Below are positions 7 through 53,684 of a stretch of 53,684 bases of DNA, piece after piece. The position numbers were made by a program, and so were the translations under genes. The notes beneath the pieces were generated by a model. That model made no database searches, was not told the origin of the DNA, and was given only the letters and a program-made list of their open reading frames with translations. Position 1 is the first letter of the stretch. The number at the start of each line of letters is the position of its first letter. The stretch comes from Chitinophagales bacterium (GTDB taxonomy: Bacteria > Bacteroidota > Bacteroidia > Chitinophagales > LD1), in the NCBI GenBank assembly GCA_025057415.1, contig JANWXI010000006.1, forward strand, positions 1 to 53,684, written 5' to 3'.

Positions 7-285
7 GGCGCGCGCCCCGAGACATCCACTTAAACATTAGTTTTATTCTTTATATAAATCATCACTGCCATACTGTTCGCCTGTGCCGCTCTGCACAAAA
101 CAAGGGTTGCCGGAGCGCTTGCCCGGGTGAGGGATGCGGAGGGCGCGAGCGAAGCGAAGCGGCCGCGCCCGTACCTTTGATAAACAAAAAATTTACGGGC
201 GCGGCGGGAGCGACAGCGTACCCCGTAGCAAGCCCGACCCCGCTGCTGCGCGCAGCCCCGCGGAGCGCAGCAGCGGGGGCACCCC
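7..285 (-). repeat. GC-rich dispersed repeat, copy A (type I, full length)
   Basis: One of six related intergenic repeats in this window. The head (GGGGTGCCCCC) lies at the right-hand end, so the element reads on the minus strand. Arms at 238-251 and 265-278 form a perfect 14-bp stem with a 13-base loop. A second perfect 11-bp stem (163-173 with 194-204) encloses a 20-base AT-rich loop; this defines type I. The tail holds a conserved stretch around 60-130, an AT-rich box (about 38-62) and ends at the palindrome GGCGCGCGCC (7-16). The window starts just outside it. The next gene's start codon (496) lies about 210 bp beyond the head. The open frames on both strands here have no consistent start or ribosome site and are not called as genes. 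Confidence 0.85.
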
Positions 286-495
286 ATTATATGTAATTAT
301 TGAAATAAGCGTTTAGTTACCCAAGTAAATTTTACATTCATTGTGTCCTAATTTTCCGGAAAGAGCTGCTGAAAAAAAATATCGAAGTGCTTGACGTATG
401 TTAGTTTCACAAAAACTTATTCACAACCCGTTTTAAGTTGATGTTATGTATTTTTTACGATATTTGAATGTTGGTTGCTTTAAGCTTTGCGCGTA

Positions 496-2397
496 ATGGT
501 TCGTGCATTATTATTATTAACGCTCCTGCCTGTTTGTGTTGAGTTATTTGCACAAAATGTGTGTGCATCAAACCGGTATATTTCGCCTGTTTTTGACAGT
601 GTTAAACTCACCTCTGGTATTCAGTACGGCGTGGCCGACCCTTACGGTTTAGACGACCACCAGCAACTGTTCTTAGATATATACGAGCCGTTAAACGATA
701 CGCTCAGTAAGCGTCCTGTGATTGTTTATGCTTATGGTGGGGCTTTTCTTATCGGTACCCGCAATCAACCTCCTATTCCCTATTATGCCGATTTTTTTGC
801 GCGTCATGGTTATGTATTTGTTTCGATTGATTACCGCCTCGGGTTCAATGTTACTACGCCCGGCAGTCCCGAACGGGCGGTGTATCGCGCCGTGCAGGAT
901 TTACGCGCTGCCATACGCCATTTGGCACACCGCGCCCATATTTACCGGATTGATACATCCAAAATCATCCTCTTTGGCAGCAGTGCAGGGTGTTTTATGG
1001 CTCTTCACTCATCGTTTATGGAATACAGCCAGGCGGCGGCTTATGCTGCACCTGTTCCATTGATAGACCCCGAGATTTTGGGAGGCGTGGACTCATCGGG
1101 TAATGCCGATTTCGGGTACCGGTACATTGAACCTTTTGCCATTATTAATCAATGGGGCGCCATAGCAGATACAAACTGGATAGAAGCCGATGAGCGAATA
1201 CCCGTTATTTCGTTTCATGGCGATCAGGATTTAGCTGTACCTTATGTTTACGGTTATCCGTTTTCATATCCCGTGTTTCCGAATGTATATGGCAGCTTGC
1301 CCATTCATCAAAGGTTGAGCAATTTAGGCATTAAAAACAAGTTATATACATTATACGGTTACGGTCATGAACCGGAGTTGCTTGCTCCGCACCTGCGCGA
1401 TACCATCTTGCTCCACACACGCGATTTCCTGTACTCGCTGCTTCAACCTGCCACTGACTTTACCGAAGCTCCTCTTTTGGCTTGTACGCAAAATGAAATG
1501 AAGTATTCCGTATCTGCCAGACCCAGCAGCCGATACTGCTGGCATCTCAACGGCAACGGCATTATTACGCAAAACACCGGACACACCATTAATGTGATTT
1601 GGACAGATACCGGGCAGAAGAGTGTAAGTGTGCAGGAACTCAGTTACTTTCTTGCCGCAGGGGAATTGAAAACAACTTCCACCCATGTTAAATCCAAAGT
1701 AACGGCTGGTTTTGGTTACCAGATCAACGAGCTTCAGGTATCTCTGCTTAATTTCTCGACCGGTGAGGAGTCGCTTGTTTGGTACTTCGGTAATGGTTTC
1801 AGCGACACCGCTCAAAACCCTACTGTGTATTATGCTCAAGGCGGTTCTTACACCATCACGCAAATTGCAGATAATGGAGTTTGTCCCGATACATTTCAAA
1901 CTATTCTTACCGTTGACTCGTGCCCGGTAGCCAGCTTTACGAACACTATTCTCAATGCAAATAGTGTGGTTTTCAATGCACAAGTTACCAACACCACGGT
2001 ATATTTCTGGGATTTCGGCAACGGTTACTCTCTCTCCACTACATCGCCCAACATTCTTTACACCTACCCTCAGCCGGGCGCTTACACCGTAACATTAATG
2101 GTAAAAAATTCGCTGAGTTGTGCAGATACCTTCTCCGCTAATATTTTACTGACTACCTCAACTTACGAGATAAATAACGATGCAGATGTGTGGATCACCG
2201 ACAAGGTACTGCATTTTCATTCATCCGCAGGTAAGGAATTACCATGGCGTATATACTATACCAACGGTCAACTTGTTTACGAAGGCAAATCACAGGATAA
2301 AAACTCAATTCCTCTGCACCATTTGCCGAGCGGTATGTATGTATTTACACTAACCGGCCATAATAACACTATTATCAAACGATTTACGTTGGAGTAG
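496..2397 (+). CDS. secreted carboxylesterase-like alpha/beta hydrolase with PKD domains and T9SS type A tail
   Basis: Predicted exported esterase/lipase. The ATG at 496 is chosen because it is followed at once by a signal peptide (VRALLLLTLLPVCVELFAQ); the same frame also has a TTG nine bases earlier. An alpha/beta-hydrolase domain fills about residues 30-320. It has a YGGAF segment like the oxyanion loop of the carboxylesterase family, a GSSAG nucleophile elbow near residue 163 and a late GYGHE that can supply the catalytic His. Two PKD-like domains follow (YFGNGF and WDFGNG with the typical GSYTIT/GAYTVT ends). The last ~70 residues look like a type A T9SS sorting domain (LPSGMYVF near the end), so the enzyme should be secreted or surface-held. 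Substrate is unknown. Its 3' end overlaps the convergent lpxB gene by 14 bp. Repeat copy A lies upstream. Confidence 0.8.
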   Translation: MVRALLLLTLLPVCVELFAQNVCASNRYISPVFDSVKLTSGIQYGVADPYGLDDHQQLFLDIYEPLNDTLSKRPVIVYAYGGAFLIGTRNQPPIPYYADFFARHGYVFVSIDYRLGFNVTTPGSPERAVYRAVQDLRAAIRHLAHRAHIYRIDTSKIILFGSSAGCFMALHSSFMEYSQAAAYAAPVPLIDPEILGGVDSSGNADFGYRYIEPFAIINQWGAIADTNWIEADERIPVISFHGDQDLAVPYVYGYPFSYPVFPNVYGSLPIHQRLSNLGIKNKLYTLYGYGHEPELLAPHLRDTILLHTRDFLYSLLQPATDFTEAPLLACTQNEMKYSVSARPSSRYCWHLNGNGIITQNTGHTINVIWTDTGQKSVSVQELSYFLAAGELKTTSTHVKSKVTAGFGYQINELQVSLLNFSTGEESLVWYFGNGFSDTAQNPTVYYAQGGSYTITQIADNGVCPDTFQTILTVDSCPVASFTNTILNANSVVFNAQVTNTTVYFWDFGNGYSLSTTSPNILYTYPQPGAYTVTLMVKNSLSCADTFSANILLTTSTYEINNDADVWITDKVLHFHSSAGKELPWRIYYTNGQLVYEGKSQDKNSIPLHHLPSGMYVFTLTGHNNTIIKRFTLE

Positions 2398-3487: not shown

Positions 3488-3810
3488 TACATGAAAAATT
3501 TGGCATATACGATTGGAATGCCCCACAAGATGGTAGCAGCTATTACCCCCCGTGCAGCGTTATAGTAATCACGGCTGATAAACACAAAGAAAACCGCCAG
3601 GTTTAAAATACAACCAAAGCTGGCAATTTTTGCCAGGATGGATGATTGTAAGGCGGTTTGCAAATATGTATCAAAACGCATGTTGCTCATCAGAAACAGA
3701 TAGAAAAAACCAAAAGATAATACAGGTAGAAACAAAGCCGGCAGCAACCCCACAAAAAAACGGTCCCATTTATAGATAGTGGGTGTGGCATTCAGAATAC
3801 GCTCTAACAT
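3487..3810 (-). CDS. small multi-pass membrane protein between surE and lpxB
   Basis: 107 residues with three hydrophobic spans (about 18-41, 60-80 and 86-104), so an inner-membrane protein with little soluble part. I do not recognise a named family. It sits 36 bp after surE, and its stop codon overlaps the lpxB start, so the three genes are almost certainly co-transcribed and the last two translationally coupled. The position suggests an envelope-related role, perhaps linked to lipid A synthesis, but nothing in the sequence states a function. No catalytic or cofactor motif is visible. Confidence 0.8.
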   Translation of the reverse strand: MLERILNATPTIYKWDRFFVGLLPALFLPVLSFGFFYLFLMSNMRFDTYLQTALQSSILAKIASFGCILNLAVFFVFISRDYYNAARGVIAATILWGIPIVYAKFFM

Positions 3811-3846
3811 GTCTTTAAAATATTAGAAATATTTTTTATAAAATTA

Positions 3847-4895: not shown

Positions 4896-7800
4896 TTAGC
4901 GAATAAGCGAGAATGACCCGTTGTAGTTCTTATCTTCAAATTGACCCGTTGAGGGATTTAATCCTCTTACAACCAGGTAGTACAAATAAGTACCAGCCGG
5001 CTGGTCTTTACCTTCATATCGTCCGTCCCAACCGGTGGTGTTGTCGTGGATGAGCGCTCCCCAACGGTTGTAAATTCTGAATGTAATTATGGACTTATCG
5101 CCAAAAATATTAACCGGATAAAAGACGTCATTACGCCCATCGCCATTAGGTGTAAACGCGTTGGGAATGGCAATACCGGGGCTTACAACAAAAATCGTAA
5201 CAGAAGCGGAGTCAATACACAAATCATCCCGGTCTGTAACCTTCACGTGATAAGTGGTGGTGTTTTCGGGCTTAGCAATGGGGTCGGCAATAGTGTCGTT
5301 GCTGAGTGTTGACGAGGGAGTCCATACATAAGACAAGTTACCAGAATAAGCAGTGTTTGCCGAAAGTTGCGAGCTTTCTCCAAATTGAATAGTATCCGGT
5401 TCTGCTAAGGCAGTAAGTTGCAAACATTTAATCTGGACGGCTGTGGTATTCGATGCCGTACAACCTACTGCATTAGTGGCTGTAACAGAGTAAGATAAGG
5501 TGTTGTTATTGGTAGAGGTAATAGAGAGTGTAGGACCGTTTGAATTATCGCTCCACTGGAATGTGTAATTAAGGCCCGGGGCAGGATCAAGGGTAACGCT
5601 TTGGCAGCAGGATTTCACCAGAGGAGGTAAGTTGAGCAAAGGCGTATCGGAAGAAAATATCACAATAGAGTCGTAAGCCAAACAGCCGTTGCGGGATGCT
5701 GTAACATAATAGGTGCCCGGGTTGGTAACCTGAATTGTATTGCCGGTAGCGCCGCCGGGTGTCCAGGTGTAAGTTACACCTGTTTCACTGCCTGCATTCA
5801 GTGTAGTGCTGCCTTGTCCGATGCATATTACAGGAGGCGTGGCGATTATATCGGGTAAAGGCAGCGGTATATGTGTAACGGTTGCGGTTGTGGAGGTGAC
5901 TGAACAACCGTTTGCATCGGTAGCCGTGTAACTGTAAGCACCGGCATTCGTTACGGTAATTTGGGAACCTGCAAGTGAGTTATTCCAAACGTAATTTGAG
6001 AATCCCGGCTGCGAAGTAAGTGTAACGGGCTGGCCGGCACACACCGTAGTGTCTTTAAATGCCTGCGGAGTTACCAGCGTGAAATTTGAAAGTGTAAATA
6101 CATCAGATGTGTAAATGCACTGTCCGTCAAATACGGTAACCTGATAGTTGCCGGGTGTGGTAACGGTAATGGTGGGTGTGGTGTTTGAGTTGCTCCAGTT
6201 ATATGAAACGTAGGGCCCTCCACTAACGCTCACGGTCACGGGGCGTCCGGGGCAGACGGTTGTGTCGTTATTTAATAACACCGGAGGGATAGTGTATTGA
6301 TATACCGTAACGGTGTCGCGCTTTTTACAAAGTTGTGCATTGGTGACCTCAACGATGTAAGTTCCGGGAGCGTTTACGGTAATGGTGGGTGTATTTTGTC
6401 CGCCGGGTATCCACAAATAAGTAAGCCCACTACCTGAGGCATTTGCGGTGAGTATTGAGCTTCCGTTAGCGCAAATAGTATCAGGCGATGCGGTTAGATT
6501 AACTGTTGGCGCAGGCCCGGCTGATACATTGGCAGTATCTGATTTAACCAGACATCCGTTTGCATCGGTGGCTGTGTAGTAGTAGTTACCGGGGGTGGTT
6601 ACTGTAATCGTATTCGTGGTAGCGTTATTACTCCAGGTAATGTTGGTTAAACCCGATACTGCGCTGAGCGTAATGGACTGTCCGTCACAAATAGAGTTAT
6701 CGCTGAGTGGGGCAGGCGTTTTTGGATGGAAGGTAATAGCCACTGATGCTGAGCCGGTGCAACCGTTAATACCTGTTACAGTTACGGAATAAGTTCCGCT
6801 GCTATTAACGATGATGCTGGGGGTAGTGCTTTGATTTGACCAGCTGTAAGCGCTGTAAGGTCCCCCTGAAGGAGATAAGGTAACACTACTGGTAATGCTG
6901 GAGCAGTGTGTTTGATTTGGTCCTAAATTGGGTTGTGGTGCAATATGTGAGTAAACCACCACTGTATCGCGGGTTTTGCAATTTTGCGCATTGGTAACTT
7001 CTACAATGTATGTACCCGGTGTACTCACGGTAATCGTGGGGGTGTTTTGGTTACCGGGTATCCAAAGGTAGGTAAGACCTGTGCCGGAGGCATTCGGGTT
7101 CAGCACCGATGTAGCATTGGGGCAAATCGTATCCGGTGATGCCGTCAGGTTAACGATTGGTGAATTCCCCGCTGTGATATTAGCTGTATCAGACCTAACC
7201 AGGCAACCGTTTGCATCGGTGGCGGTATAGTAATAATCGCCCACAGTGTTTACGGTAATAGAGCTGGCATTAGAGTTCGTATTCCACTGGATGTTCGTTA
7301 GTCCTGGCAAGGCATTTAGTGTTATAGATTGACCACTGCACAAAACGGCATCGTTAAGAGGTGCTGATGTAATGGGATGGAAAGTTACGGATACCGAAGC
7401 AGAGCCAGAGCAACCATTTGCATCCGTCACAGTAACAGAATAAGTTCCGGTGGTATTTACGATAATGCTTGGTGCAGTGGAGCTTGTTGACCATGAATAT
7501 GAACTATAAGGCCCACCGGAGGGTGATAGAGTGGCAGATGTAGCTACATTTGGGCAGTAACTTTGGTTGGGACCGAGGTTTGGCTGCGGAGAGGGGTTCA
7601 CATTTACAGTTACACTGCTTGTTGCCGTACAACCGTTAGTGGTTGAAGCTGTAACGGTGTAAGTGGTGGTTGTAGTTGGATTTGCCGTGGTATTTTGAGC
7701 ATTAGGATTGCTCACCGTTCCACCTGACCATGTATAGTTTACATTACCACTACCTCCGGTTAATTGTGCAGAGAGGTTTACAGTGGTACCCGGACATACT

Positions 7801-9185
7801 GGTGTGTTGGGGGATGCAGTAGCCGTTAGATTCAAATTAGTAACATTAACCGTCGTGCTGGCTGTATTTACACAGGTACCAAAGGTTGTTGTTACTGTAT
7901 ATGTAGTGGTTGTTGACGGCTGTGCCGTAGGGTTTGCTATATTAGGGTTACTAACAGTGCCGGACGATGCCGACCAGGCATAAGTACCCCCCCCTGTGGC
8001 TTGTAGTTGCACGGTTTGACCGGCGCATATAGTTGATGGGGTGGCAGTTGCTGTAGTGTTAGGTGCATCGTTGATATTGAGCGTGGCGGATGTGAGAATT
8101 GTACCATCACAAGGGTTAATGATGTTGATGGTAACCGTTTCCTGTCCCTCGGTGATGCCATCGGCAATAGGGTTCACGGTAATGGTAGTAGTGGTATTTC
8201 CGGGGTTTACATGCGCAACACCGGAAAGAGAAGTGTAATCGGTGCCATTGGCGGCGGTACCGGTAAGCGTGTAGTTTATCACGTGTGATGAGGTGGCGGG
8301 CTGCGGGAGAGTTACCGTAAAATACCCTTTTGAGCACCCTTCAAAAGCAGAAGTAAATCCCGGATCGTATGAGGCAGTAACAGTAGTTCCGACAGATGTA
8401 AAAGAGTTTGATTGAATAAACACTCCTGAGTCATAAATACCGTCTCCGGCATCCCCAATTGCCAGTTTCATGGTATATGTGGCACAGGGTACTACCGCGA
8501 TACTTGCTGAAAAAACTGTTGTAAATCCGTCATAAACGATTGTATTACCAAATTGATTATCTATGTAGTAATTTGAATAGGAAAGCGATTGACAGCCACT
8601 GGAAGAATAACCAGAGCCGGGTACTCCCGGGTTAACAGTATTTATTGAAACAGTAGTATTGGTGCCCGGAATGAATGCAATGTTGGCAGAGCTGTATGCC
8701 CCTCCGCCCGGGTTTGGCCCAGTGATAAAAAATCCAAATACATCATTGAATTGTGAACAAACGTATTCGGGATACTCCTCCGAACCAAAAACATACTGAA
8801 ATGTAAGGGTATTACCAACCGGCACAATGTTGAAAGTGAGAATGCAAACATCCTGTGTGGATGCTGCTGATATAAGGTTGAGGTCAGGATCTCCGCCGGT
8901 AGCGTTGTCTGTTGAGGCAAATGCAGTTCCGGGTTGTGGAATTGCAGTGGCAGTACCGGTGGTTAATACAATACCGGAATTAATACCCAAGTTAGTAGTG
9001 TTTCCATTCGTAAAGCTACCATAGCCGTTTGGCCCGCATAAAAGTGTAGCGCCGCTTACCGATACACCGGGTCCGGCCAATATCTGAGCTAACTGGGTTG
9101 GGGTTTGCGAAGTATTGACAATTAACTGCGCTTTCAGATAAACCAACAGGCATGTCAGGGGTATTGTAAATAGAGCTTTTTTCAT
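4896..9185 (-). CDS. T9SS type B (gliding motility-associated C-terminal) surface protein with choice-of-anchor L domain
   Basis: 1429-residue exported protein. Signal peptide at 1-19 (MKKALFTIPLTCLLVYLKA). Residues ~20-265 fit the 'choice-of-anchor L' domain often found at the N terminus of Bacteroidota surface proteins (note FGSEEYPEYV and FGFFITGP). A Calx-beta-like domain follows (~270-375, GTDYTSLSG and ITEGQETV), then about a dozen Ig/PKD-like modules rich in Thr, Ser and Asn. Modules 533-749 recur as 750-966. The C terminus (~1340-1429) carries PNAFTPNGDGRND and YNRWG, the type B T9SS sorting signature. Likely role: surface adhesin or matrix protein; its ligand is unknown. A promoter box lies at 9211-9218 and an intrinsic terminator at 4840-4876, so it is a single-gene unit. 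Confidence 0.88.
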   Translation of the reverse strand: MKKALFTIPLTCLLVYLKAQLIVNTSQTPTQLAQILAGPGVSVSGATLLCGPNGYGSFTNGNTTNLGINSGIVLTTGTATAIPQPGTAFASTDNATGGDPDLNLISAASTQDVCILTFNIVPVGNTLTFQYVFGSEEYPEYVCSQFNDVFGFFITGPNPGGGAYSSANIAFIPGTNTTVSINTVNPGVPGSGYSSSGCQSLSYSNYYIDNQFGNTIVYDGFTTVFSASIAVVPCATYTMKLAIGDAGDGIYDSGVFIQSNSFTSVGTTVTASYDPGFTSAFEGCSKGYFTVTLPQPATSSHVINYTLTGTAANGTDYTSLSGVAHVNPGNTTTTITVNPIADGITEGQETVTINIINPCDGTILTSATLNINDAPNTTATATPSTICAGQTVQLQATGGGTYAWSASSGTVSNPNIANPTAQPSTTTTYTVTTTFGTCVNTASTTVNVTNLNLTATASPNTPVCPGTTVNLSAQLTGGSGNVNYTWSGGTVSNPNAQNTTANPTTTTTYTVTASTTNGCTATSSVTVNVNPSPQPNLGPNQSYCPNVATSATLSPSGGPYSSYSWSTSSTAPSIIVNTTGTYSVTVTDANGCSGSASVSVTFHPITSAPLNDAVLCSGQSITLNALPGLTNIQWNTNSNASSITVNTVGDYYYTATDANGCLVRSDTANITAGNSPIVNLTASPDTICPNATSVLNPNASGTGLTYLWIPGNQNTPTITVSTPGTYIVEVTNAQNCKTRDTVVVYSHIAPQPNLGPNQTHCSSITSSVTLSPSGGPYSAYSWSNQSTTPSIIVNSSGTYSVTVTGINGCTGSASVAITFHPKTPAPLSDNSICDGQSITLSAVSGLTNITWSNNATTNTITVTTPGNYYYTATDANGCLVKSDTANVSAGPAPTVNLTASPDTICANGSSILTANASGSGLTYLWIPGGQNTPTITVNAPGTYIVEVTNAQLCKKRDTVTVYQYTIPPVLLNNDTTVCPGRPVTVSVSGGPYVSYNWSNSNTTPTITVTTPGNYQVTVFDGQCIYTSDVFTLSNFTLVTPQAFKDTTVCAGQPVTLTSQPGFSNYVWNNSLAGSQITVTNAGAYSYTATDANGCSVTSTTATVTHIPLPLPDIIATPPVICIGQGSTTLNAGSETGVTYTWTPGGATGNTIQVTNPGTYYVTASRNGCLAYDSIVIFSSDTPLLNLPPLVKSCCQSVTLDPAPGLNYTFQWSDNSNGPTLSITSTNNNTLSYSVTATNAVGCTASNTTAVQIKCLQLTALAEPDTIQFGESSQLSANTAYSGNLSYVWTPSSTLSNDTIADPIAKPENTTTYHVKVTDRDDLCIDSASVTIFVVSPGIAIPNAFTPNGDGRNDVFYPVNIFGDKSIITFRIYNRWGALIHDNTTGWDGRYEGKDQPAGTYLYYLVVRGLNPSTGQFEDKNYNGSFSLIR
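6288..7589 (-). repeat. tandem 217-residue duplication inside the surface protein gene
   Basis: Codons for residues 533-749 (6939-7589) and 750-966 (6288-6938) encode two adjacent copies of a three-domain block, offset by exactly 217 residues (651 bp). Each block begins with PQPNLGPNQ, contains TFHP...YYYTATDANGCLV in the middle and ends with TYLWIPG...TPGTYIVEVTNAQ or a near match. The two blocks are much more alike than neighbouring modules are, so this is a recent duplication of a three-domain unit. Confidence 0.85.
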
Positions 9186-10580: not shown

Positions 10581-10856
10581 GGGGGTGCCCCCGCTGCCAA
10601 GCGCTGCAAGGCAGCGGGGTCGGGCTTGCTACGGGGTACGCTGTCGCTTCCGCCGCGCCCGTAAATTTTTTAGATTTTTCAATGGTACGGGCACGGCCGC
10701 TTCGCTGCGCTCGCGCCCTTCGCATCCCTCACCCAAACAAACGCTGCGGCAACCCTTGTTTTGTGCAGAGCAGCACAGGCATGCTGGTGTTGCCGCGATA
10801 ATTTATATTAAGAATTAATTTAATGAGGTAAGTGTGTGCCTCGTGGCGCGCGCCGC
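10581..10856 (+). repeat. GC-rich dispersed repeat, copy B (type I, full length)
   Basis: Head GGGGGTGCCCCC at 10581. Perfect 10-bp head stem (10589-10598 with 10610-10619), loop of 11 bases. The second, type I, hairpin pairs 10653-10663 with 10686-10696 with one mismatch around a 22-base AT-rich loop. The tail hairpin is a perfect 8-bp stem (10746-10753 with 10789-10796). An AT-rich box follows (about 10797-10825) and the copy ends at the palindrome GGCGCGCGCC (10845-10854). A T-rich run precedes the head. It lies between divergent genes, 260 bp from the start at 10320 on its head side. Confidence 0.87.
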
Positions 10857-11733: not shown

Positions 11734-11735
11734 CC

Positions 11736-15412: not shown

Positions 15413-15441
15413 ATATACCTTGAAACAATTAGTAGTCCATG

Positions 15442-15449
15442 CAAACATA
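15442..15449 (-). promoter_or_regulatory. Bacteroidota -7 promoter box for the 12470-15412 gene
   Basis: The minus strand reads TATGTTTG, an exact TAnnTTTG match, 29 bp before the ATG at 15412. This gives a short leader of about 20 bases and supports 15412 as the start. It lies in the 82-bp space shared with the divergent hydrolase gene. Confidence 0.5.
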
Positions 15450-24674: not shown

Positions 24675-24699
24675 CGAAATAAAGAAGGGCAAGCCCTTC
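24675..24699 (-). terminator. intrinsic terminator of the SRP RNA gene
   Basis: On the minus strand GAAGGGC and GCCCTTC (24693-24699 and 24684-24690) form a 7-bp stem and are followed by a T-rich run (TTTATTT). Its 5' half overlaps the 3' end of the RNA, which can instead pair with the RNA's own 5' end. Confidence 0.6.
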
Positions 24700-24781
24700 A
24701 TATCGCACCGCTACAACCGTGTACCTTTGCTCGGTTTCCCGCCTGGAGGAGTAACGGGAGCTGGTCGTATGACACTTGCCC
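24687..24781 (-). ncRNA. ffs: small signal recognition particle RNA (4.5S-type)
   Basis: On the minus strand the sequence contains CCAGGCGGGAAACCGAGCAAAGG. This has the diagnostic SRP domain IV layout: CAGG on the 5' side, a short GC stem, a purine-rich GGAA(AC) apical loop, then AGCA on the 3' side, where protein Ffh binds. The ends GGGCAAG (24781-24775) and CTTGCCC (24693-24687) are perfectly complementary over 7 bp, giving one long hairpin of 95 nt, normal for the small bacterial form. A -7 promoter box lies 5 bp upstream and an intrinsic terminator overlaps the 3' end. With Ffh it would target nascent membrane proteins to SecYEG. The exact 5' and 3' ends are estimates. Confidence 0.85.
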
Positions 24782-24785
24782 ACTG

Positions 24786-24793
24786 CAAATATA
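24786..24793 (-). promoter_or_regulatory. Bacteroidota -7 promoter box for the SRP RNA
   Basis: The minus strand reads TATATTTG, an exact TAnnTTTG match, whose last base is 5 bp from the predicted first base of the RNA (24781). This is the spacing expected for this promoter class. Confidence 0.65.
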
Positions 24794-31973: not shown

Positions 31974-32430
31974 AAAAAATCTCTGAGCCGGCCAACTGCC
32001 CGATACATATAATAAATATTTTTACTATTTGGGGGTGCCCCCGCTGCTTCGCTCCGCGCGGCTCCGCTTCGCAGCGGGGTCGGGCTGGCTACGGGGTACG
32101 CTGCCGCTCCCGTGCTCCACTGCGTTACGCACCGCTCCCTACGGTCGCGCCCTTCGCATCCCTAACCCGGCTTGCGCATCCTTATGCAAATATGCGATAT
32201 TGAATTGCTGAACTTTCATACCTTCTTTACATCATCCGGTTTTCACAAAACCGTATTTGCGAAAATTCATCCGGGGCAATGCCATAATACAGCACATGTA
32301 CAAATGAATATACTTTTTTAATACCACCTTGTGAAAGTTGCGTTCGTCTCAAAGAAATAATGCGATACTATTGTATTATTAACAACGAATATTTTCGGGT
32401 TGATTAAACTTTTAATAAATTGTTAATTCT
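31974..32430. other. gene-free stretch between divergent genes
   Basis: It contains repeat copy C (32031-32180) and an AT-rich remainder. The remainder holds a perfect 7-bp hairpin CGGTTTT/AAAACCG (32237-32253, loop of 3). No protein or RNA gene is supported. Confidence 0.55.
32031..32180 (+). repeat. GC-rich dispersed repeat, copy C (type II, truncated)
   Basis: Head GGGGGTGCCCCC at 32031 preceded by a T-rich run. The 9-bp CCCCGCTGC/GCAGCGGGG head stem is kept. The middle is type II: instead of the AT-looped hairpin it has CGTGCTCCACTGCGTTACGC and CCCTACGGTCGCG. The copy breaks off after the TCGCATCCCTAACCC box and lacks the tail hairpin and AT-rich box of full copies. It lies between divergent genes. 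Confidence 0.85.
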
Positions 32431-37760: not shown

Positions 37761-38160
37761 CGCATTCAGATTTTATTTTAAATAAAACAATCGCTGACTC
37801 ACAGCAATTATGTGATTACCCTTGTAAAGAACAAATATCCGAAACGCAACCCATCAAAGCAACAATCCATTACGGGATTTTTTGTTTTCAGGGGGTGCCC
37901 CCGCTGCTTCGCTCCGCGCGGCTGCGCTCCGCAGCGGGGTCGGGCTGGCTTCGGGGTGCGCTTCGCTCCCGTGCTCCACTGCGTTACGCACCGCTCCCTG
38001 CGGTCGCGCCCTACGCATCCCTCACCCGGCCGGCAAACACACTTCTACTTGCTAATGGCTAAACACGAGTGTATAATACAATTTCTTCATCCATCTTCTG
38101 CCTACCATGTTGCGTAACTCCTGCAACAAGTTCACTGATTTCTTATCCGCTTACGACCCA
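37761..38160. other. gene-free stretch holding repeat copy D
   Basis: 400 bp between the redoxin start and the PorP gene end. It contains repeat copy D (37891-38036). The open frames in it are the repeat read through. Confidence 0.5.
37891..38036 (+). repeat. GC-rich dispersed repeat, copy D (type II, truncated)
   Basis: Head GGGGGTGCCCCC at 37891 after a T-rich run. The 9-bp CCCCGCTGC/GCAGCGGGG stem is kept. The middle is type II, as in copies C and E (CGTGCTCCACTGCGTTACGC). It ends after CGCATCCCTCACCCGGCCGGC; the tail hairpin is not recognisable. It stands in the upstream region of the redoxin gene, on the side away from the PorP gene. Confidence 0.84.
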
Positions 38161-41021: not shown

Positions 41022-44000
41022 CTAATCTTCTATGAGCAATACATTGCCTTTGATGGTAGTGAGGCGGTCGGTTATATCAGGCAGTTGCACTACATAGTAG
41101 TATGTACCCGGAGAAACTTTTTTGCCATTGAACCGGCCGTCCCACCCATCGGTGCCCCTGTACAGCTCCTGCCCCCAGCGATTAAGGATTACCAAATCAT
41201 ACCCCTTCAGGAATAAGTCATTTACACCATCACCATTGGGAGTAAAAGCATTCGGAAATTCCACCACCTTCACATAACCGATACTTTTGTTAGTAACGCA
41301 ACCCGCATGGGTAGCAATCACCCACACCGAGTCCCCATCCTGAAAGTTGCTGCCGGCAAACGTGTGTAGTGAGTCGCTTTGAGCCAGGTTGCCGTTCCAA
41401 TAAAACTCGTAGTGTTCAAACGTATCCGGCACTGCTATCCATACCAGCACTTCGTTTTGGAAAATGATATTACCCGGGTGGTCGCTCGTTAACTGCACCA
41501 CAGGCCGCGGACGCACTGTTACCGTAACATGCACTCGCCCCTGCAAGTTTGAACAACCGCCCGTGGAGACAGCTTCGGCATAAAAGATTGTCGTTTGCGT
41601 AAGTGTATCTGTGGTAAAGGTGTTTCCTGTACCAAGCAAAGTGCCGCCTGCGGGGGCGCTCCACCAGTTAACGGTAGTGCCGGCGGGAGTTACCAGCGCA
41701 GTGAGGGTCGTATTTTGTCCGTAACATATCGTATCGTCTGCAGCAGTAACAGATAATACGGTAGGTACATCCACCACTACCTGCAGGGTGGCAGCAGGGC
41801 TGTTGCCACATTCATTGTTGGCAGTAACCGATACCGTATAAATGCCGGCAGTACCACCCCAGGTTATCGTCACATTGGGGGTACCTTGCCCGGCAGTAAT
41901 ACTACCTCCCCCACTTAGCGCCCAGGTGTAAGAAGTTGCATCACCGGTTGCCGCTGCGTTGTAAACTGCGGCAGTATTACCGCAAGGCGAAGGATTGCCG
42001 TTGATAACTGCAGGAAGCGCCGGTACATTTTTCACGTAAACATACACGGATGTATTAACCGACCCGCAGGCGTTTGTGGCCGTGAGAACATACGTGCCGG
42101 TAGCCGATGGTTGCGCGTTGTTGATAGTAGCGTTTTGTTGATTTGCCTGAAAACCTCCCGGTCCGCTCCAGTTCCAGGTGTCAACATTCACGCCGTTGCC
42201 ATTTAGTTGAAGGGTACCGCCTACACAAATAGTATCATTCGGTGAAGCAAGCGCGGTGAGTGAATGAATGAACGTATCAACCTGCACACTCACACTGGCT
42301 GTTTGGCTGCCGCAAGCGTTCGTAGCAGTGACGGTGTATGTGCCGCTGCCCGCCAACGTGATGGGTACGATTACCGGGTTTTGTAGCGATGACTGAAAGC
42401 CGTGTGGTCCGCTCCAGCTCCACGAGCTTACGCCACTGCCCGAGGCGCTCAGGGTCAAAGCGCTGCCGCTGCATACCGAGCCGTTTTGAGTAGCCGTAGC
42501 CGAAATATTTTGCAGAGGCGATTGCACTAACAGCGATACAAATGCCGATAATGCGTTGCAGGCATTACTGCCTATCACATTGTATGTACCGCTGTTAGAT
42601 GGGTTAACGTTGTTAAGCGTAACGGAAGATTGGGATGAGGTAAATCCACCGGGGCCATTCCATAACCATGTACTTACATTTGACCCGGTTGCACTGAACG
42701 ACACTGTGCTTCCGGCGCAAACCGTATCATCGGGAGCAGCATTAACGGAGATAGCAGTGATGGTTGTATCTACCTGCACCGATACAGAGGCGGTTTGTAC
42801 ACCGCATGCGTTGGTGGCGGTTACGGTATAGGTTCCTGAGTTTACTGTGTACACAGGATTCAACACCGGATTTTGCAGATTAGAACTGAAACCACCCGGC
42901 CCGCTCCATTGCCAGTGGTTTACGCCTGAGCCGCTGGCAATCAGAGATATGCTGCCTCCGGCACATACATTTGAACCGACGGCAGAGGATGCTGTAATGT
43001 TACCCAACGTGTTATTGACTAACATTTGTAATCCGGCCGACTGACTGCCACAAGCATTGCTGGCCGTAACGGTATAAGTACCACTGTTCGCCAATGTAAC
43101 ATTGGGTATAGCAGGATTGGGCAAAGCTGATGTGAAGCCATTGGGTCCCGCCCACGCCCAGGTATCTACGGAGTTGCCCGCAGCTTGCAGTTGTATGTTG
43201 GCTCCGGCACAAACTGTATCATTCGGATTTGCTGAAACACTGATGCTTTGTATGGGTATATCTACATCCACATTCACAGTAGCGCTGGCGGAGCCGCAGG
43301 CATTAGTAGCTGTTAGTGTGTATAGGCCGCTATCAGCGGGGGTGGCGTTAGCAATTACGGGGTTTTGAAGCGAAGAGCTGAAGCCATTGGGGCCGGTCCA
43401 GGAAAAAGAAGACGCACCGTTAGCATTGCCGAGTAACGAGATAGATGAATTGGCGCATACATCAGCGGATGTTGCATTGGCTGTAACATTGGTTGGAGCT
43501 GTTGCTAAATTTACCAACACACTGCTTTGCGAAGAGCCGCAGGCGTTGAGGGCTGTAAGTGTGTAAGTGCCGGCATTGATTTGCTGAAAATTGGTAATGG
43601 TGTTGTTTAGTTGATTAGATGTGTAATTATTAGGGCCAGACCAACTGTAGGATGTAGCGCCCACTGCACCCCCGCCCAAGGTGAGGGTTCCTCCCGCACA
43701 AACGGGGCTTGGGTTTGCGGTGGCATTGACTGAGATAGGCGCAGCATTAACGGTTATCTGCACACTTGCCGTACTGTTTCCACAGGCGTTGCCCGCGGTA
43801 AGGGTATAAGTACCAGTGGCTGCAAGTTGAACATTGGTGATAGAGGTGTTTTGTGTGTTGGCGGTAAAACCGTTTGGTCCGCTCCAACTCCATGAGGTGG
43901 CATTGGTGGCGCTGCCCGTTAGGTTGATAGTATTGCCTACACACGCCGTGCTGGGGTTGGCAGAAGCGCTTACGTTTTGCGGAACGTTGTTTACGGTCAC

Positions 44001-46103
44001 TGTTACACTGGCAGAACCACTACCGCATGCACTGCTGGCTGTAAGGTTGTAAGTGCCGGCATTAGCCGGAGTGACATTTGTAATTTGGGGGCTTTGCGAG
44101 TTGGATGTAAAACCATTCGGCCCGCTCCAACTCCATGTATTTACCCCGTTACCGCTGCCTACTAATGTAAGGGTACCGCCCACACATACCGGATTGGGAT
44201 TGGCAGATGCAGATACGTTGCTGACACCGGCTACTACGTTAACCTGTAGTGTTCTGCTCACACTGCCGCAGGCATTTGCCACTACTACCGAAACCGTGTA
44301 AGGCCCGCCTGACGAGGTCCAGTTTATAGTAATGTTGGGTGTGTTTTGTCCTGAGGTGATAGTGCCTCCGCCGCTCACGCTCCAATTGTATGAAGTAGCC
44401 CCCGCAGCTGTTATTGAGTAATTTGCGTTGCCCAGGCAAGGCGCATTACTTCCGGTGATATTGCCTACCGATGAGGGGGGCTGTATCACCGTAAGGGTGA
44501 TGCTGGCGCGTTGGCTTACACATCCGGGGTTTGAGTTATCATCAGCTTCTACGTAGTAGGTGGTGGTGCTGCCAGGCGAAACTGTCATGGGTGCATTGCC
44601 AATGGGGGTTCCTCCTGTAGGTTGAGTGTAAACTTTGTATGTGACGTTGCTGCCGCCGGTAGCGCTGAGCGTTACCGGAGTGCCGGGGCATACGTTGTTA
44701 TTGCTGAGCGATGGCGTAGGTGTAGGTGGCGGATTGCAAGCTACATTTAAACAAATTACCGAGGTGCCCGGGTTTACGTTGATAGCTGTTAGAGTAACAC
44801 TGCTGCCTGTGCCGGTAGTAACAAGGGTAGGTGTAAAAGAACTGAGCGATGGAGAATAATTGCTGCGGGTAAAAGCAGGTGAACCGGGAGCACACGCTGC
44901 GCTGTTTTGCAATCCATCTTTATCGGTTTTTACTACTCCGTAATCATAGCTGGAGGGAGTTTGTGTGGCGGAAATGGAGTTCATGATGTAACCCGTGTCA
45001 CTCACTTGCAAACCCACGGGGAGTATGGATACAAAACCCGAGTTGTAGGTACGGCTAAACATTACCGCTCCGCTGGACGAGTTGGTTTTTAATATGAAAG
45101 AGCTGTAATCCAGGAAGGGCGGAGTAAAAATTGCACCGATACGCGTTCCGAAAATAGTGTTATGTCCATCAATGGTGCGCACCAGGCTGGAGCCAAGTGC
45201 TGAAAAACCCGCAGTGGTGTATAAACTATTAGTGCCTGTAACAGACGGACCTGTGTTGGGTACATTCAGATTTAACAGGAATGCCCGACCGTTGTCATCA
45301 CCGCTCAACATCACGGCGCTTGTGCCGGTGCTTATGATAGAGTATGCTCCCTCGCTGTTGCTGTTGCCCCATCGGTAAGCCCATTGTAAAGCGCCGTTTG
45401 TGTTTGTTTTCAGAATAACTGCATCGCTGTGTCCGTCACCTGCCACCATGGTTACCGAGCCGACAAACACGTAGCCATCGTTTACTTCTGCCACATCGTA
45501 TAGGAAGTCGTCATCATCATAGGCGGTGGTGTAAAAGAACACGCGCATCCACTGCAGGTTGCCGTTGCCGTCAATTTTCAAGGCAAACATTTTTGAGGAG
45601 TCCTGCCGGACAATGGGGCCGGCACCATCGGGGTCCACGCGTTCTACGCTTCCTGCCACTACGTAACCGCCATCGGTGGTAGGTAATATCCGGTTACCGT
45701 ATTCAATGCTGCCAGTTGAGGCAGATACTCTATACCGGTTTGCCCAAACAACATTACCGTTGGCATCCACACGCGCTACCAAACAGCCCGAGCCCGTTCC
45801 GCCCGTTACCACATAACCTCCTCCGCTTACACGTTTCACATCCGAAAACTGTGTGCTGATGCCGCTTGCCGAATACGCTTTTGCCCATTGTACCGCACCG
45901 TTTTGCGAGATTTGTATCAGGTTGCCTACGGTGCCCAGTGTGGCGTTAGTGCCCGAAAGCACATAACTGCCCGAAGTACTTTGCGCTAAGCCACCCGGTA
46001 AATCAAAAATGGCAAGGTCGTATTGAATACGAAAAGTAGTTTGCTGTGCAAAAAGTATAAAAGAGGATAGTAGAACTAACGGTAATGTAAATATCCTAAT
46101 CAT
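41022..46103 (-). CDS. T9SS type B adhesin-like protein with nine Ig-like repeats
   Basis: 1693 residues, the largest gene here. Signal peptide 1-19 (IRIFTLPLVLLSSFILFA). An N-terminal region of ~430 residues repeats the pattern 'GGYVVTGG/GNLQWMRVF', a beta-propeller-like surface domain. Then come two PKD-like modules and nine Ig-like repeats of ~80 residues with 'VCAGGTLTL...WSWSGPNGF...TYTVTA.NACG', two more modules and a C-terminal PNAFTPNGDGVND, LNRWGQELYRG segment, the type B sorting signature. It heads an operon with an OmpA protein and PorP/SprF, so it is the likely cargo of that set. It may be a gliding or attachment adhesin; the ligand is unknown. Confidence 0.9.
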   Translation of the reverse strand: MIRIFTLPLVLLSSFILFAQQTTFRIQYDLAIFDLPGGLAQSTSGSYVLSGTNATLGTVGNLIQISQNGAVQWAKAYSASGISTQFSDVKRVSGGGYVVTGGTGSGCLVARVDANGNVVWANRYRVSASTGSIEYGNRILPTTDGGYVVAGSVERVDPDGAGPIVRQDSSKMFALKIDGNGNLQWMRVFFYTTAYDDDDFLYDVAEVNDGYVFVGSVTMVAGDGHSDAVILKTNTNGALQWAYRWGNSNSEGAYSIISTGTSAVMLSGDDNGRAFLLNLNVPNTGPSVTGTNSLYTTAGFSALGSSLVRTIDGHNTIFGTRIGAIFTPPFLDYSSFILKTNSSSGAVMFSRTYNSGFVSILPVGLQVSDTGYIMNSISATQTPSSYDYGVVKTDKDGLQNSAACAPGSPAFTRSNYSPSLSSFTPTLVTTGTGSSVTLTAINVNPGTSVICLNVACNPPPTPTPSLSNNNVCPGTPVTLSATGGSNVTYKVYTQPTGGTPIGNAPMTVSPGSTTTYYVEADDNSNPGCVSQRASITLTVIQPPSSVGNITGSNAPCLGNANYSITAAGATSYNWSVSGGGTITSGQNTPNITINWTSSGGPYTVSVVVANACGSVSRTLQVNVVAGVSNVSASANPNPVCVGGTLTLVGSGNGVNTWSWSGPNGFTSNSQSPQITNVTPANAGTYNLTASSACGSGSASVTVTVNNVPQNVSASANPSTACVGNTINLTGSATNATSWSWSGPNGFTANTQNTSITNVQLAATGTYTLTAGNACGNSTASVQITVNAAPISVNATANPSPVCAGGTLTLGGGAVGATSYSWSGPNNYTSNQLNNTITNFQQINAGTYTLTALNACGSSQSSVLVNLATAPTNVTANATSADVCANSSISLLGNANGASSFSWTGPNGFSSSLQNPVIANATPADSGLYTLTATNACGSASATVNVDVDIPIQSISVSANPNDTVCAGANIQLQAAGNSVDTWAWAGPNGFTSALPNPAIPNVTLANSGTYTVTASNACGSQSAGLQMLVNNTLGNITASSAVGSNVCAGGSISLIASGSGVNHWQWSGPGGFSSNLQNPVLNPVYTVNSGTYTVTATNACGVQTASVSVQVDTTITAISVNAAPDDTVCAGSTVSFSATGSNVSTWLWNGPGGFTSSQSSVTLNNVNPSNSGTYNVIGSNACNALSAFVSLLVQSPLQNISATATQNGSVCSGSALTLSASGSGVSSWSWSGPHGFQSSLQNPVIVPITLAGSGTYTVTATNACGSQTASVSVQVDTFIHSLTALASPNDTICVGGTLQLNGNGVNVDTWNWSGPGGFQANQQNATINNAQPSATGTYVLTATNACGSVNTSVYVYVKNVPALPAVINGNPSPCGNTAAVYNAAATGDATSYTWALSGGGSITAGQGTPNVTITWGGTAGIYTVSVTANNECGNSPAATLQVVVDVPTVLSVTAADDTICYGQNTTLTALVTPAGTTVNWWSAPAGGTLLGTGNTFTTDTLTQTTIFYAEAVSTGGCSNLQGRVHVTVTVRPRPVVQLTSDHPGNIIFQNEVLVWIAVPDTFEHYEFYWNGNLAQSDSLHTFAGSNFQDGDSVWVIATHAGCVTNKSIGYVKVVEFPNAFTPNGDGVNDLFLKGYDLVILNRWGQELYRGTDGWDGRFNGKKVSPGTYYYVVQLPDITDRLTTIKGNVLLIED

Positions 46104-47294
46104 TTCAGGGGTGTGTTAGTGTGTGCCGTAAATATACAAGACCTGCACAAACGCGCGAAACTGTTTGCAATGAATATTCCGGAGATTACTAATGCCTTGA
46201 ATTACAAATCATTTACCGGCTACTGATTTATCAGACAATTTTTCACGGTGCCGGCAACCCACGTTCGGGTAATCACTTTTCAATACTCTGCTACTGCATG
46301 AGCAATAAACGGGTACGGCTATACATCTAATTCAAATAAAAATGTTTAATAATGCATACGTTTAGTCATCCTGATACAGTATTATTTTTTTTAATATATA
46401 TCAGGGGTGCAGTTGCAAATCCTGATGAATTGTGTTTAGCACCTACCCTGTGTTGGCTGCGAGGGTAATGGGTAATCTATTACCAACATAAACGATACAA
46501 GTACCCGTAGCATGCTTGTCAGTTTGAAAAGTGTTGCAGTAAAATAAAAATGTTGTATTGCCTGAACAAAAAACAGCAGTTTTAGCTGTAGTATTGCTCA
46601 GCTTAAATGCAGTGTGTTCGGGTGGCAGGTAGTTTAAAGGGTAATTATCTGGTTATTTGAATGAAGTTATTTGCGGGGCGCGTGCCCCGTGACATACATT
46701 CATCATATTAAATTTATTCTTTATACAAATTATCACGGCAACACCTGCTTACCTGAGCTGCTTGGCACAATACAGGAGATGCCGGAGCGCTTGCCCGGGT
46801 GAGGGATGCGAAGGGCGCGAGCGCAGCGAAGCGGTGCGTAACGCAGTGGAGCACGGGAGCGGCAGCGTACCCCGTAGCAAGCCCGACCCCGCTGCTGCGC
46901 GTAGCCCTGCGAAGCGCAGCGGCGGGGGCACCCTATATTAATTAACTCCTTGTCGCGGTTTGAATTTTTGAAGTAAAACACAAAGCAGATGTGATAAGTA
47001 ATTTGGCATTACCCGGTATTTTATTTTATGTGCCCACTTCAATATATGACTTGAAAACTTTGTTGCGTGGCGCTTTGCGGATACTTTTTCGGTGTATCTT
47101 TTACGCAACTCAAACCGGATGAGCGTTAATGGATAATGGTGTGAACGTGTGTGGTGTGCACCGCACCGTGGCGTGAAAACTTACTTTGTAATTTTTATTT
47201 ATGTTAGCAACATTCCGGCAGGTAATTATCCTATTAAAGGACGATAATTTTCGCTTTTAATATCTTACCCGCCAGTATTGATTATAAATACAAG
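46104..47294. other. gene-free stretch of 1191 bp
   Basis: Mostly AT-rich sequence between divergent genes. It holds repeat copy E (46674-46933), an AT-rich inverted repeat CCTGATA/TATCAGG (46370-46376 and 46399-46405) and a small GGTAAT/ATTACC stem near 46470-46490. The longest gene-free region in the window; no protein or RNA gene is recognised. Confidence 0.6.
46674..46933 (-). repeat. GC-rich dispersed repeat, copy E (type II, full length)
   Basis: The head is at the right end (GGGGGCACCC on plus). The head stem pairs 46887-46900 with 46914-46927, 14 bp including one T-G wobble, loop 13. The middle is type II, yet the copy keeps the full tail, showing that the middle type and the tail vary independently. 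The tail hairpin pairs 46736-46740 and 46744-46747 with 46780-46784 and 46773-46776. An AT-rich box (about 46707-46733) follows, and the copy ends in a 6-bp hairpin, CGGGGC/GCCCCG (46674-46689). The head points toward the deacetylase start at 47295. Confidence 0.86.
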
Positions 47295-49079: not shown

Positions 49080-49116
49080 TAAAAAAAATAGCGCAGACAA
49101 GTAACCTGTCTGCGCT
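49080..49116 (-). terminator. intrinsic terminator after the 49136-50698 gene
   Basis: A perfect 10-bp stem (49090-49099 with 49107-49116) with a 7-base loop. On the minus strand it is followed by a run of T residues (minus strand of 49081-49088). It lies 20 bp past the stop of the Trp-rich protein gene. On the plus strand no T tract follows, so it serves the minus-strand gene, though the stem could also end the formyltransferase transcript. Confidence 0.85.
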
Positions 49117-49135
49117 TAGTGTTAGAGGAAGTTTA

Positions 49136-50698: not shown

Positions 50699-50811
50699 GG
50701 TGAGGTGTTTTATGGTTAAGACAAAAATTTAATTCGTAAGTTTAATGATAGCGGTTTTCCTATTTTAGCCCGCTCTAATTTCAATGACTAAATAACGTAC
50801 CATATATTGTT

Positions 50812-52284: not shown

Positions 52285-52299
52285 TGTAACAAATTCCCC

Positions 52300-53193
52300 T
52301 TACGTCCACAACGAAGCGGGGTACTCACCCTTGGCTATCAGGTTAGCAATACTTTGCCGCACATGTCCGGCGTCTTCGCGGTAAGTAACCCCAAACCAGT
52401 CAGCCGATGAGGGCAACACTTCAAAAACGGCAGCGCCGCATTTTATCATAGCATCCGCAACAATCGGAATAAAAAACTCGGATTTGGGGTTCAGGTGGTT
52501 TTGCGACAAAAAACGATGAAACTCCTTTTCAAACACCGGATATACTGCGGGGTGCATACACCAGAAATTCATACTTACGCGCTTATCGCCCAGCGGGTGA
52601 ATGCCGGTATCATCTTCATAAACAATTTCTGCTTCATGCCTGTAAACCTTTGTTCGTTCGGTTATACCGCTCAGTCGCCCTTGTTCATCTACATCGCACA
52701 CGCCGCGGCTAACACTGCCGTGAGCCGAAAGGGTTCTCGCCAGTTCATATCCAATGAGCGCCATGCGCTGAGGACTGCACACATCGCGCAGGAATGTTGC
52801 CGCGCGTACAAAGGCATCGCGCCCGTAAAAATCATCGGCATTGATAACAGCAAAAGGTTCTCTTACCACCGGCTGCGAACACAGCACCGCATGTGCCGTG
52901 CCCCAGGGTTTTACGCGCTCTGCCGGCCATGTGTAGCCGTTCATGTACGCGTCTTTGTCCTGAAACGCGTAAGCAACGTTGATGCGCCCGCGAAGCTTCG
53001 GCTCAAACATGCTGCGGAAAGCATCCTCATGTTGACGCTGAATGATAAAGACCACCTGTCCGAAACCCGCCTGTATTGCATCGTAAATGCTGTACTCCAG
53101 CAGGGTCTCGCCAGAGGGGCCAAAGCCCTCAGTTTGTTTCATACTGCCGTAGCGGCTCGCCATACCTGCCGCCAGTATCACTAATGATGCCAT
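52300..53193 (-). CDS. sugar-phosphate nucleotidyltransferase family protein
   Basis: 297 residues of the GT-A-like NTP transferase fold. VILAAGMASRYGSMKQ (5-20) is the nucleotide-binding loop of G-x-G-x-R type. FAVINADDFYGRDAF contains the metal-binding Asp pair, and TERTKVYR and MNFWCMHPAVY fit the later core. It probably makes a nucleotide sugar for cell-surface glycans. The ATG at 53193 is chosen because an upstream frame adds 83 residues with no family resemblance. Two palindromes (53203-53214 and 53265-53274) lie just upstream. Confidence 0.85.
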   Translation of the reverse strand: MASLVILAAGMASRYGSMKQTEGFGPSGETLLEYSIYDAIQAGFGQVVFIIQRQHEDAFRSMFEPKLRGRINVAYAFQDKDAYMNGYTWPAERVKPWGTAHAVLCSQPVVREPFAVINADDFYGRDAFVRAATFLRDVCSPQRMALIGYELARTLSAHGSVSRGVCDVDEQGRLSGITERTKVYRHEAEIVYEDDTGIHPLGDKRVSMNFWCMHPAVYPVFEKEFHRFLSQNHLNPKSEFFIPIVADAMIKCGAAVFEVLPSSADWFGVTYREDAGHVRQSIANLIAKGEYPASLWT

Positions 53194-53576
53194 TGTGCCG
53201 TGTTTGCCGGCAAATAAAACACTTGCCCTGTGGTCTGCAAACTTCGCAAACAATGGAAATTGGCTTGCCGGCAACTGATGTTGACTGCCGTAAAACTTAT
53301 ACAAATTACTCCACGTACCCGGGTGAAAATTACTTACCACAAAAAACTTTGCGCCACTCATACCAGTATAACCGGCAATAATTTCGTTGAAACAGGCGCA
53401 TAAATACCCTGTAAGAAAACCAACAGCGCATATACACCGCATTAATATTTAGCGGCTAATGCTGTTAACATTCGTTCAAGCACAAAGGATTTTCTCTTAT
53501 CACAAACACTAAATATATCAAGAATGTAAGTTATACCCAGATTACTGAACGACTACTTCAATCATTTTTTTATTGT
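53194..53576. other. gene-free stretch upstream of the nucleotidyltransferase
   Basis: 383 bp. It holds two palindromes (53203-53214 and 53265-53274) and otherwise AT-rich sequence up to repeat copy F. The longer minus-strand frame through it has no recognised domain. Confidence 0.5.
53203..53274. promoter_or_regulatory. two copies of the palindrome TTGCCGGCAA
   Basis: TTTGCCGGCAAA (53203-53214, 12-bp perfect palindrome) and TTGCCGGCAA (53265-53274), centred about 61 bp apart, 10 and 72 bp upstream of the nucleotidyltransferase start. A pair of identical palindromes at such positions suggests a two-site operator, but a regulator is not identified. Confidence 0.35.
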
Positions 53577-53684
53577 GGGGTGCCCCCGCTGCTCCGCTCC
53601 GCGCGGCTCCGCTCCGCAGCGGGGTCGGGCTTGCTACGGGGTACGCTTTCGCTCCCGCCGCGCCCGCGCATTATTTGTTTTTCA
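53577..53684 (+). repeat. GC-rich dispersed repeat, copy F (type I, cut by window end)
   Basis: Head GGGGTGCCCCC at 53577 after a T-rich run. The head stem CCCCGCTGC/GCAGCGGGG is kept. The middle starts the type I hairpin (CCGCCGCGCCCG then an AT-rich loop) but the window ends inside it. The head points toward the nucleotidyltransferase start at 53193, about 380 bp away. Confidence 0.83.

Follow-up and report, generated by a model that had tools for sequence, protein, structure and literature searches.

Repeat copies in the window

The DNA stretch analyzed here (hereafter the window) comprises 53,684 nucleotides from a Chitinophagales bacterium and corresponds to contig C163 (JANWXI010000006.1) of a 3.22-Mb source assembly of 196 contigs that is 93.85% complete. 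It carries a GC-rich dispersed repeat, six copies of which had been reported in a first-pass annotation. All six were present and alignable, five of them as complete cores of 135-160 nt and one truncated by the window end. They are given below together with the matches to covariance model R1, which was built from an alignment of relatives' elements (A4, described below) without sequences of the source genome or of the window type, and whose E-values are rough.

125..284, minus strand: copy 1, complete core with outer stem P1 (GGGTG/CACCC), hairpin P2, a TCGGGCT junction and arm P3 carrying hairpin 2 of type A; R1 match at 125-285, E=0.85
7..124, minus strand: T1 tail on copy 1
10583..10734, plus strand: copy 2, complete core, hairpin 2 of type A; R1 match at 10582-10734, E=0.001
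10735..10856, plus strand: T1 tail on copy 2, aligned to copies 1 and 5
32033..32168, plus strand: copy 3, complete core, hairpin 2 of type B; R1 E=5.6
37893..38027, plus strand: copy 4, complete core, hairpin 2 of type B; missed by R1 at E<=10
46797..46933, minus strand: copy 5, complete core, hairpin 2 of type B; R1 E=3.8
46674..46796, minus strand: T1 tail on copy 5, the query of the T1 search and its best match (46674-46792)
53578..53684, plus strand: copy 6, truncated inside hairpin 2 by the window end, which is also the contig end

The T1 tail explains the longer spans originally assigned to three copies (7-285, 10581-10856, and 46674-46933). Copies 3 and 4 have no such tail, and copy 6 ends before the T1 position. 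In copy 3 the terminus reads CTAACCC, which breaks the fifth P1 pair. The description of the copies as GC-rich and intergenic held up. GC content was 0.66-0.76 in the five complete cores versus 0.38-0.41 in their flanks (up to 150 nt per side), and all open reading frames (ORFs) overlapping copies in the window were 101 aa or shorter. Genome-wide, a single copy out of 86 lay inside an ORF of at least 100 aa according to a simple ORF call. A family scan of ten longer window ORFs around the copies, excluding two shorter ORFs closer to copy 2, identified no mobile-element gene, and three of the ten matched no family. Both ends of contig C163 (1-285 and 53578-53684) consist of the repeat or its tail. 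Since at least 15 of the listed places in the source genome begin no more than 105 nt from where a contig starts, the assembly was probably broken by the repeat.

Core anatomy and attached tails

The core follows the order GGGGTG, hairpin 1, GGGTCGGGCT-NGCTACGGGGTRCGCT, hairpin 2, and CGCATCCCTCACCC. We collected 98 distinct copies from the source genome, of which 86 had both ends and measured 126-184 nt. With up to two mismatches permitted when locating the core end, the exact terminus CGCATCCCTCACCC was found in 82 of these 86. Hairpin 2 exists either as type A (57/86) or as type B (20/86), which are interchangeable; the remaining 9 fit neither expression. Stem positions covary even among copies of this one genome. 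Among the 57 type A hairpins, pair 10 was C-G in 33, T-A in 20, and something else in 4, and pair 3 was G-C in 39, C-G in 7, A-T in 1, and something else in 10. Pairing was inconsistent at pair 11, the one nearest to the loop.

A subset of copies is extended by larger repeated flanks, either upstream (34/94 copies) or downstream (53/85). The T1 tail gave 37 matches in the genome, and in all 30 that were fetched it was preceded by the core (29 loci by script, and locus L298 from the 20 bases that could be read there). Mean pairwise identity among 26 T1 loci was 96% at the junction (a value biased upward by the tolerant pattern used to find the junction), 87% at the 3' end of the core, 74% in T1, and 48% in the 60 nt upstream. 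In source-genome loci such as L029, L095, and L084, the core is followed by composite intergenic arrays in which additional GC palindromes (e.g., GGGGCGCGCGCCCC and CGGGTCGCCCGCC..GGCGGGCGACCCG) are set in AT-rich spacers and which often end in ..GGTAACTAAACGACTACTTCAA. These arrays are probably other repeat families nested with the repeat.

Copy number and distribution

From the density of copies in the window, hundreds had been anticipated in the genome. With as many as 3 mismatches allowed, a 32-nt pattern from the core matched 201 places (89 + 112) in the 3.2-Mb source genome versus 0 for the reversed-pattern control, which excludes chance and agrees with that estimate. Using a blastn-type DNA search, no window-type copy was detected in any of 17 congeners, and the sole diverged window-type relative among 98 relatives came from G039, a genome of another family. 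A looser two-block pattern (GGTCGGGCT..ATCCCT(A/C)AC(C/G)C) matched 47 of the 298 genomes searched in the order and 54 of 392 in a phylum sample, with the source genome included in both counts and one reversed-control match in each listing. Of the 54, 50 belong to the same class and 4 lie outside it. There were 158 such matches in the source genome, 218 in genome G079, and 0-10 in the congeners, 10 of the 17 having at least one (1-10 each). Judged by the DNA search of the congeners, the family has expanded in the source lineage.

Window copy 2 had no blastn match among phages and plasmids. In a collection of 2.9 million viral contigs, 87 stretches matched the element pattern and were used for the pair counts given below. 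One IMG/VR contig of 9169 bases (L380) has an element close to either end, the two being inverted relative to each other, at 443-512 (minus strand) and 9069-9138 (plus strand).

A shared three-armed design with covarying stems

In relatives of the same class, the outer stem P1 reads GGCGTG..CACGC (GGGGTG..CACCC in the window), hairpin P2 reads CCC..GGG, and arm P3 reads GGGCTX..YATCCC, which gives the common layout GGCGT(G/T) - NCCC..GGG - TC - GGGCTX..YATCCC - T - (C/A)ACGC. Many P3 letters are fixed by the search pattern, as are the TC and T of the junction and a C/T mismatch in P3, which are also shared; none of these counts as independent evidence. The variable P1 positions and the X-Y pair were free to vary, and the analysis of pairing relies on them. 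After 13 of 98 elements without a 5' anchor were dropped, 85 remained, in which P1 pair 3 was C-G in 77 and G-C in 8, P1 pair 5 was G-C in 51, T-A in 33, and A-C in 1, and X-Y was A-T in 39, T-A in 26, G-C in 17, and something else in 3. The viral contigs provided 81 further matches in 80 fetched stretches of the 87, 14 of them without anchor. The two P1 positions were paired in 67/67 and 65/67 of these, and X-Y in 71/81 with all four Watson-Crick types represented. When both sets were pooled and identical elements were counted once (178 elements, with 24 lacking the 5' anchor omitted from the P1 counts), pairing reached 154/154 at P1 pair 3, 152/154 at P1 pair 5, and 166/178 at X-Y, again with all four Watson-Crick types. 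The window type itself displays a compensatory change in P1, with GGGTG/CACCC versus GCGTG/CACGC or GCGTT/AACGC elsewhere.

Alignment A4 contains 40 elements, none of them from the source genome or of the window type, and its 20-pair structure was 96.3% paired. Ten pairs had double-sided changes, a number equalled by 1 of 500 shuffles, and the covariation score was equalled by none of 500. The number of further pair types was not unusual (78/500 shuffles). Sliding the structure along the alignment reduced pairing to 36-57%. RNAalifold with RNA energies recovered the same three-arm junction unprompted from alignment A2 (53 elements), which has a few misaligned P1 rows of the kind that A4 was built to avoid. 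Together these comparisons show that the free positions of P1 and P3 are kept paired across genomes by compensatory change.

Model R1 connects the window repeat to these relatives. At E<=10 it produced four matches in the window, all of them to the repeat. The match to copy 2 reached E=0.001 and the others were weak (0.85-5.6), while copy 4 and the truncated copy 6 were missed. All 17 of the other loci searched at this threshold matched and formed a graded series from 59 to 7 bits: the G079 copies scored 42-59 bits, two classical elements of the source genome 43 (L211) and 35 (L212), the G039 copy 28, and six loci of the window type between 23 and 7, with the two lowest lacking significance. 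In L211 and L212, window P1/P2 modules are joined to a classical P3 arm. The combination of P1, P2, and P3 is thus recognized in the source genome by a foreign-trained model, and on this sequence evidence the window repeat is a diverged, GC-rich, and highly amplified branch of a class-wide three-way-junction superfamily, as defined here.

Relationship to Flavo-1

Flavo-1 (RF01705; Weinberg et al. 2010, PMC2864571) was published as a candidate RNA and has been listed since 2010 with no known function. Of 20 loci sampled from other genomes, 19 had a Flavo-1 match at E<=1 that overlapped the element, and 5 passed the Rfam gathering score (42 bits). The sole miss was L061, the G039 copy nearest to the window type. 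The Rfam model spans 76 positions that are equivalent to the P3 region of the element; it has neither P1 nor P2, and it lay on the strand opposite to TCGGGCT in 19/19 matches. Flavo-1 is the P3 arm of classical members of the superfamily.

The window repeat itself had no match to Flavo-1 (>=42 bits) or to any other Rfam family at the gathering score, and Flavo-1 did not match copy 2 even at E<=10. Neither was there a Flavo-1 match at E<=1 in L197 and L198 (G079), in L211-L213 (source genome, classical), or in L001 and L041 (window type). The initial suggestion that the family was undescribed is therefore half right, because RF01705 models only the classical P3 and misses the window variant: the variant indeed reaches the gathering score of no Rfam family, but it belongs to a diverged branch of a superfamily whose P3 arm is already catalogued. 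Neither P1/P2 nor a mobile repeat is described in the portions of the Flavo-1 literature that were examined (PMC2864571, PMC9723704, PMC9029176), and a literature search that mostly excluded subscription papers yielded no description of a Bacteroidetes repeat of this design. The GUCCY-hairpin, a Bacteroidetes entry in a table of PMC2864571, offers a lead from its name only, as the common P3 variant AAGTCCTCGC contains GUCCY.

Gene orientation and site occupancy

Gene orientation around the elements is mixed. Among the 48 of 85 relatives' elements with long enough loci, neighboring genes were tandem with the element in sense in 19 cases, tandem in antisense in 14, convergent in 6, and divergent in 3; three more elements lay inside an ORF and three had no called neighbor. 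The 61 of 86 source-genome copies with both neighbors called, as judged from simple ORF calls, comprised 18 tandem sense, 8 tandem antisense, 13 convergent, and 22 divergent cases. No mobile-element family was present among the 25 commonest of 269 Pfam families in 139 flanking ORFs, and these 25 represent housekeeping, TPR, or secretion domains.

Occupied and empty versions of the same site were found in another genus, g143. In G605, the element (also present in G780 and G766) sits between two genes that adjoin or overlap without any insert in G681, G704, G744, G703, and G698. At this one occupied/empty site an ambiguous overlap of 3-6 nt was seen, and the inverted ends of the element consist of the 5-bp P1 only. 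A second site, in G602, had a match in 148 of 150 genomes; 30 of these loci were fetched, and 20 of the 30 had both flanks. The element was present in 11 of these 20 (that of the query included), always in the same orientation, and absent from 9. The P3 hairpins resident at this site differ between species; the site must therefore be a hotspot, or else copies swap their arms in place. Comparison of a window site with 10 congener loci showed that synteny was lost, since none of them had an ortholog of the neighboring gene next to the query gene, and the one-strand element pattern used there missed even the window's own copy. Flanking direct repeats were found in 0/67 loci versus 2/67 mismatched pairs, and this idea was rejected.

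As for other features of the window, a Bacteroidales small signal recognition particle RNA (RF04183, 86.3 bits) lies at 24683-24788 on the minus strand and is one indication that the class in question is Bacteroidia, and three long ORFs of the same strand contain repeated coding units (41022-46103, 4896-9185, and 12470-15448). The first of these encodes PKD/Ig domains and a CHU_C type IX secretion signal.

Strand preference of the fold

Counts of G.T versus A.C pairs on the TCGGGCT strand were 249 versus 69 in source-genome copies, which are not independent of each other, 146 versus 112 in relatives, and 170 versus 211 in flanking DNA. Exceptions in the lower stem comprised 0 G.T versus 6 A.C. 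This strand was the better folder in only 15/85 relatives and 31/86 source-genome copies. With RNA parameters, the consensus energy was -7.24 kcal/mol for the TCGGGCT strand and -9.25 kcal/mol for its reverse complement.

Search for an enzyme

Repetitive extragenic palindromic (REP) sequences are one comparison, and we looked for the Y1 transposase (PF01797) of REP-associated tyrosine transposases (RAYTs). The source genome yielded only an IS200-like remnant of 20.8 bits. A Y1 match occurred in 19 of 20 element-bearing genomes, the exception being G079, the richest in copies. When the 32 Y1 loci that had been fetched were searched loosely, the element appeared at three positions, 1.2-3.7 kb from the Y1 match and not as flanking repeats. 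No RAYT gene flanked by the repeat was found in the source genome, in G079, or in those 32 loci elsewhere. When 17 RAYT-like loci were read by eye, at least 8 had other palindromes beside the gene. Loci L174-L193 contain RAYT-like genes, including the YIHNNP type, flanked by palindromes of their own (e.g., GATAGCGCGGATTTGCAATCCGTGCC or GCTAGCGCGAGC..GCTCGTGCC). Based on the Y1 genome searches and the 32 inspected loci, a RAYT/IS200 transposase is an unlikely partner of the repeat.

Other candidates were also discarded. The source genome has one 512-aa reverse transcriptase gene (L344, G000:C119, 1066-2604, plus strand) about 0.3 kb from the copy at G000:C119:66211-66362. Reverse transcriptase is not required because G079 has none. 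Integron attC sites were considered on account of the GCGTT/AACGC-like ends, but the order of the core sites is reversed with respect to the attC motif. An intrinsic terminator does not fit either: by eye, the listed copies have no T-run 3' of the stem, and a T-run instead precedes the head.

Interpretation and alternatives

To us the chances are about even that the repeat represents non-autonomous mobile DNA of a REP-like kind, acted upon while folded by a trans-acting enzyme encoded elsewhere. One strand, or a cruciform, would fold when the DNA becomes single-stranded, and the folded structure would be the target recognized by a trans-acting strand-transfer enzyme whose gene lies elsewhere. 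Copies would spread into T-rich intergenic DNA, sometimes carrying an attached flank such as T1, after which selection or conversion between copies would keep the core uniform. The enzyme is probably other than a Y1/RAYT transposase, and mobility of the window's own copies is plausible. The repeat has the REP style in being a short, imperfect, intergenic palindrome with many copies, and it shares with REP/REPIN sequences and their TnpA-REP (RAYT) transposases the folded repeats, the bursts in copy number, and the lack of a gene of its own. However, REP/REPIN sequences are single hairpins and not three-way junctions, no intact Y1 gene was found in the two richest genomes, and the RAYT-like genes adjoin other palindromes. 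The GC clusters and double-hairpin elements of fungal mitochondria are likewise GC-rich hairpin repeats in AT-rich DNA whose hairpin modules are exchanged, a likeness by description. A more specific proposal, which we advance tentatively and with some doubt, is that the superfamily constitutes a class of mobile DNA recognized through its three-way junction and moved by a class-wide enzyme that is neither Y1/RAYT nor adjacent to the repeat, with P2 and P3 exchanged in place; Flavo-1 would then be one arm of this DNA and not an RNA.

Several observations weigh against a mobile element. No enzyme was found, and neither a cut site nor a clear duplication of the target was seen. DNA parameters gave consensus energies of 0.0 kcal/mol for the TCGGGCT strand and -1.56 kcal/mol for its reverse complement, so a stable consensus fold as DNA is disfavored. 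The strand signals conflict, with the G.T excess on one side and the lower-stem exceptions and fold preference on the other. Across the 26 T1 loci, conservation is higher in the core (96% and 87%) than in T1 (74%), a difference that a functional element staying in place would also produce. Losses might also account for the occupied and empty sites, the shared g143 site is old and not freshly jumping, and no empty site was obtained for the window's own copies (one site was compared, with synteny lost).

Some of these points would suit a structured non-coding RNA family, as in Rfam, whose copies are transcribed and act as small RNAs or parts of mRNAs. Covariation is strong with RNA energies and DNA energies give little or no structure, the strand chosen by Rfam folds better in most elements, and the core is highly conserved relative to its tail. 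Several 5' transcribed regions of F. psychrophilum coincide with Flavo-1 matches according to PMC9723704, but matches there lie indistinctly sense or antisense of transcribed regions, and many fall outside them; these published data speak against a fixed sense. Both tandem placements are also common (sense and antisense 19 and 14, n=48; 18 and 8, n=61), copy number ranges from 0 to more than 200 between genomes, and there is no constant neighbor among the 25 commonest flanking families. We consider an RNA family unlikely, and the repeat resembles DNA that spreads more than it resembles a regulatory RNA. Another possibility is a chromosomal DNA site, where a cruciform would be bound by a protein of the nucleoid or of replication, repair, or topology and amplification would be incidental. 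A role of this kind has been proposed for some REP/BIME elements. The intergenic location without an orientation rule, the structure retained after amplification, and the same site and orientation kept in 11/20 g143 loci agree with it. We give it a low probability: window-type matches number 0 in the 17 congeners, although 10/17 have 1-10 looser matches, and site presence varies between species.

Two transposase-based alternatives are less likely still. Mobilization of REP sequences by a Y1/RAYT (TnpA-REP) transposase, weakened already by the searches above, would account for the similar style (short, imperfect palindromes present between genes in many copies) and for the Y1 match in 19/20 element-bearing genomes, and Bacteroidetes TnpA-REP subclass 2.6 is flanked by atypical secondary structures according to PMC6006769. 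We nevertheless regard it as very improbable, since the two genomes with the highest copy numbers (the source assembly, 93.85% complete, and G079) have no intact Y1 gene, the element occurs only three times in 32 Y1 loci at a distance of 1.2-3.7 kb and without flanking the gene, and other palindromes occupy that position in at least 8/17 RAYT-like loci. An ordinary miniature inverted-repeat transposable element of a DDE transposase would also be non-autonomous and dispersed, but it is likewise very improbable here: classic long terminal inverted repeats are lacking, the inverted ends being the 5-bp P1, conservation includes the internal junction and not the ends only, and the occupied/empty site reveals no clear constant duplication.

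With Flavo-1 as one arm of a larger three-way junction, in a dispersed repeat that has burst in particular lineages, the target to search for would be a DNA-acting enzyme and not an RNA target, and genomes with about 200 copies make such a search practical. The near-perfect covariation provides a model for the re-annotation of related genomes, whose assemblies may be broken by these repeats as well.

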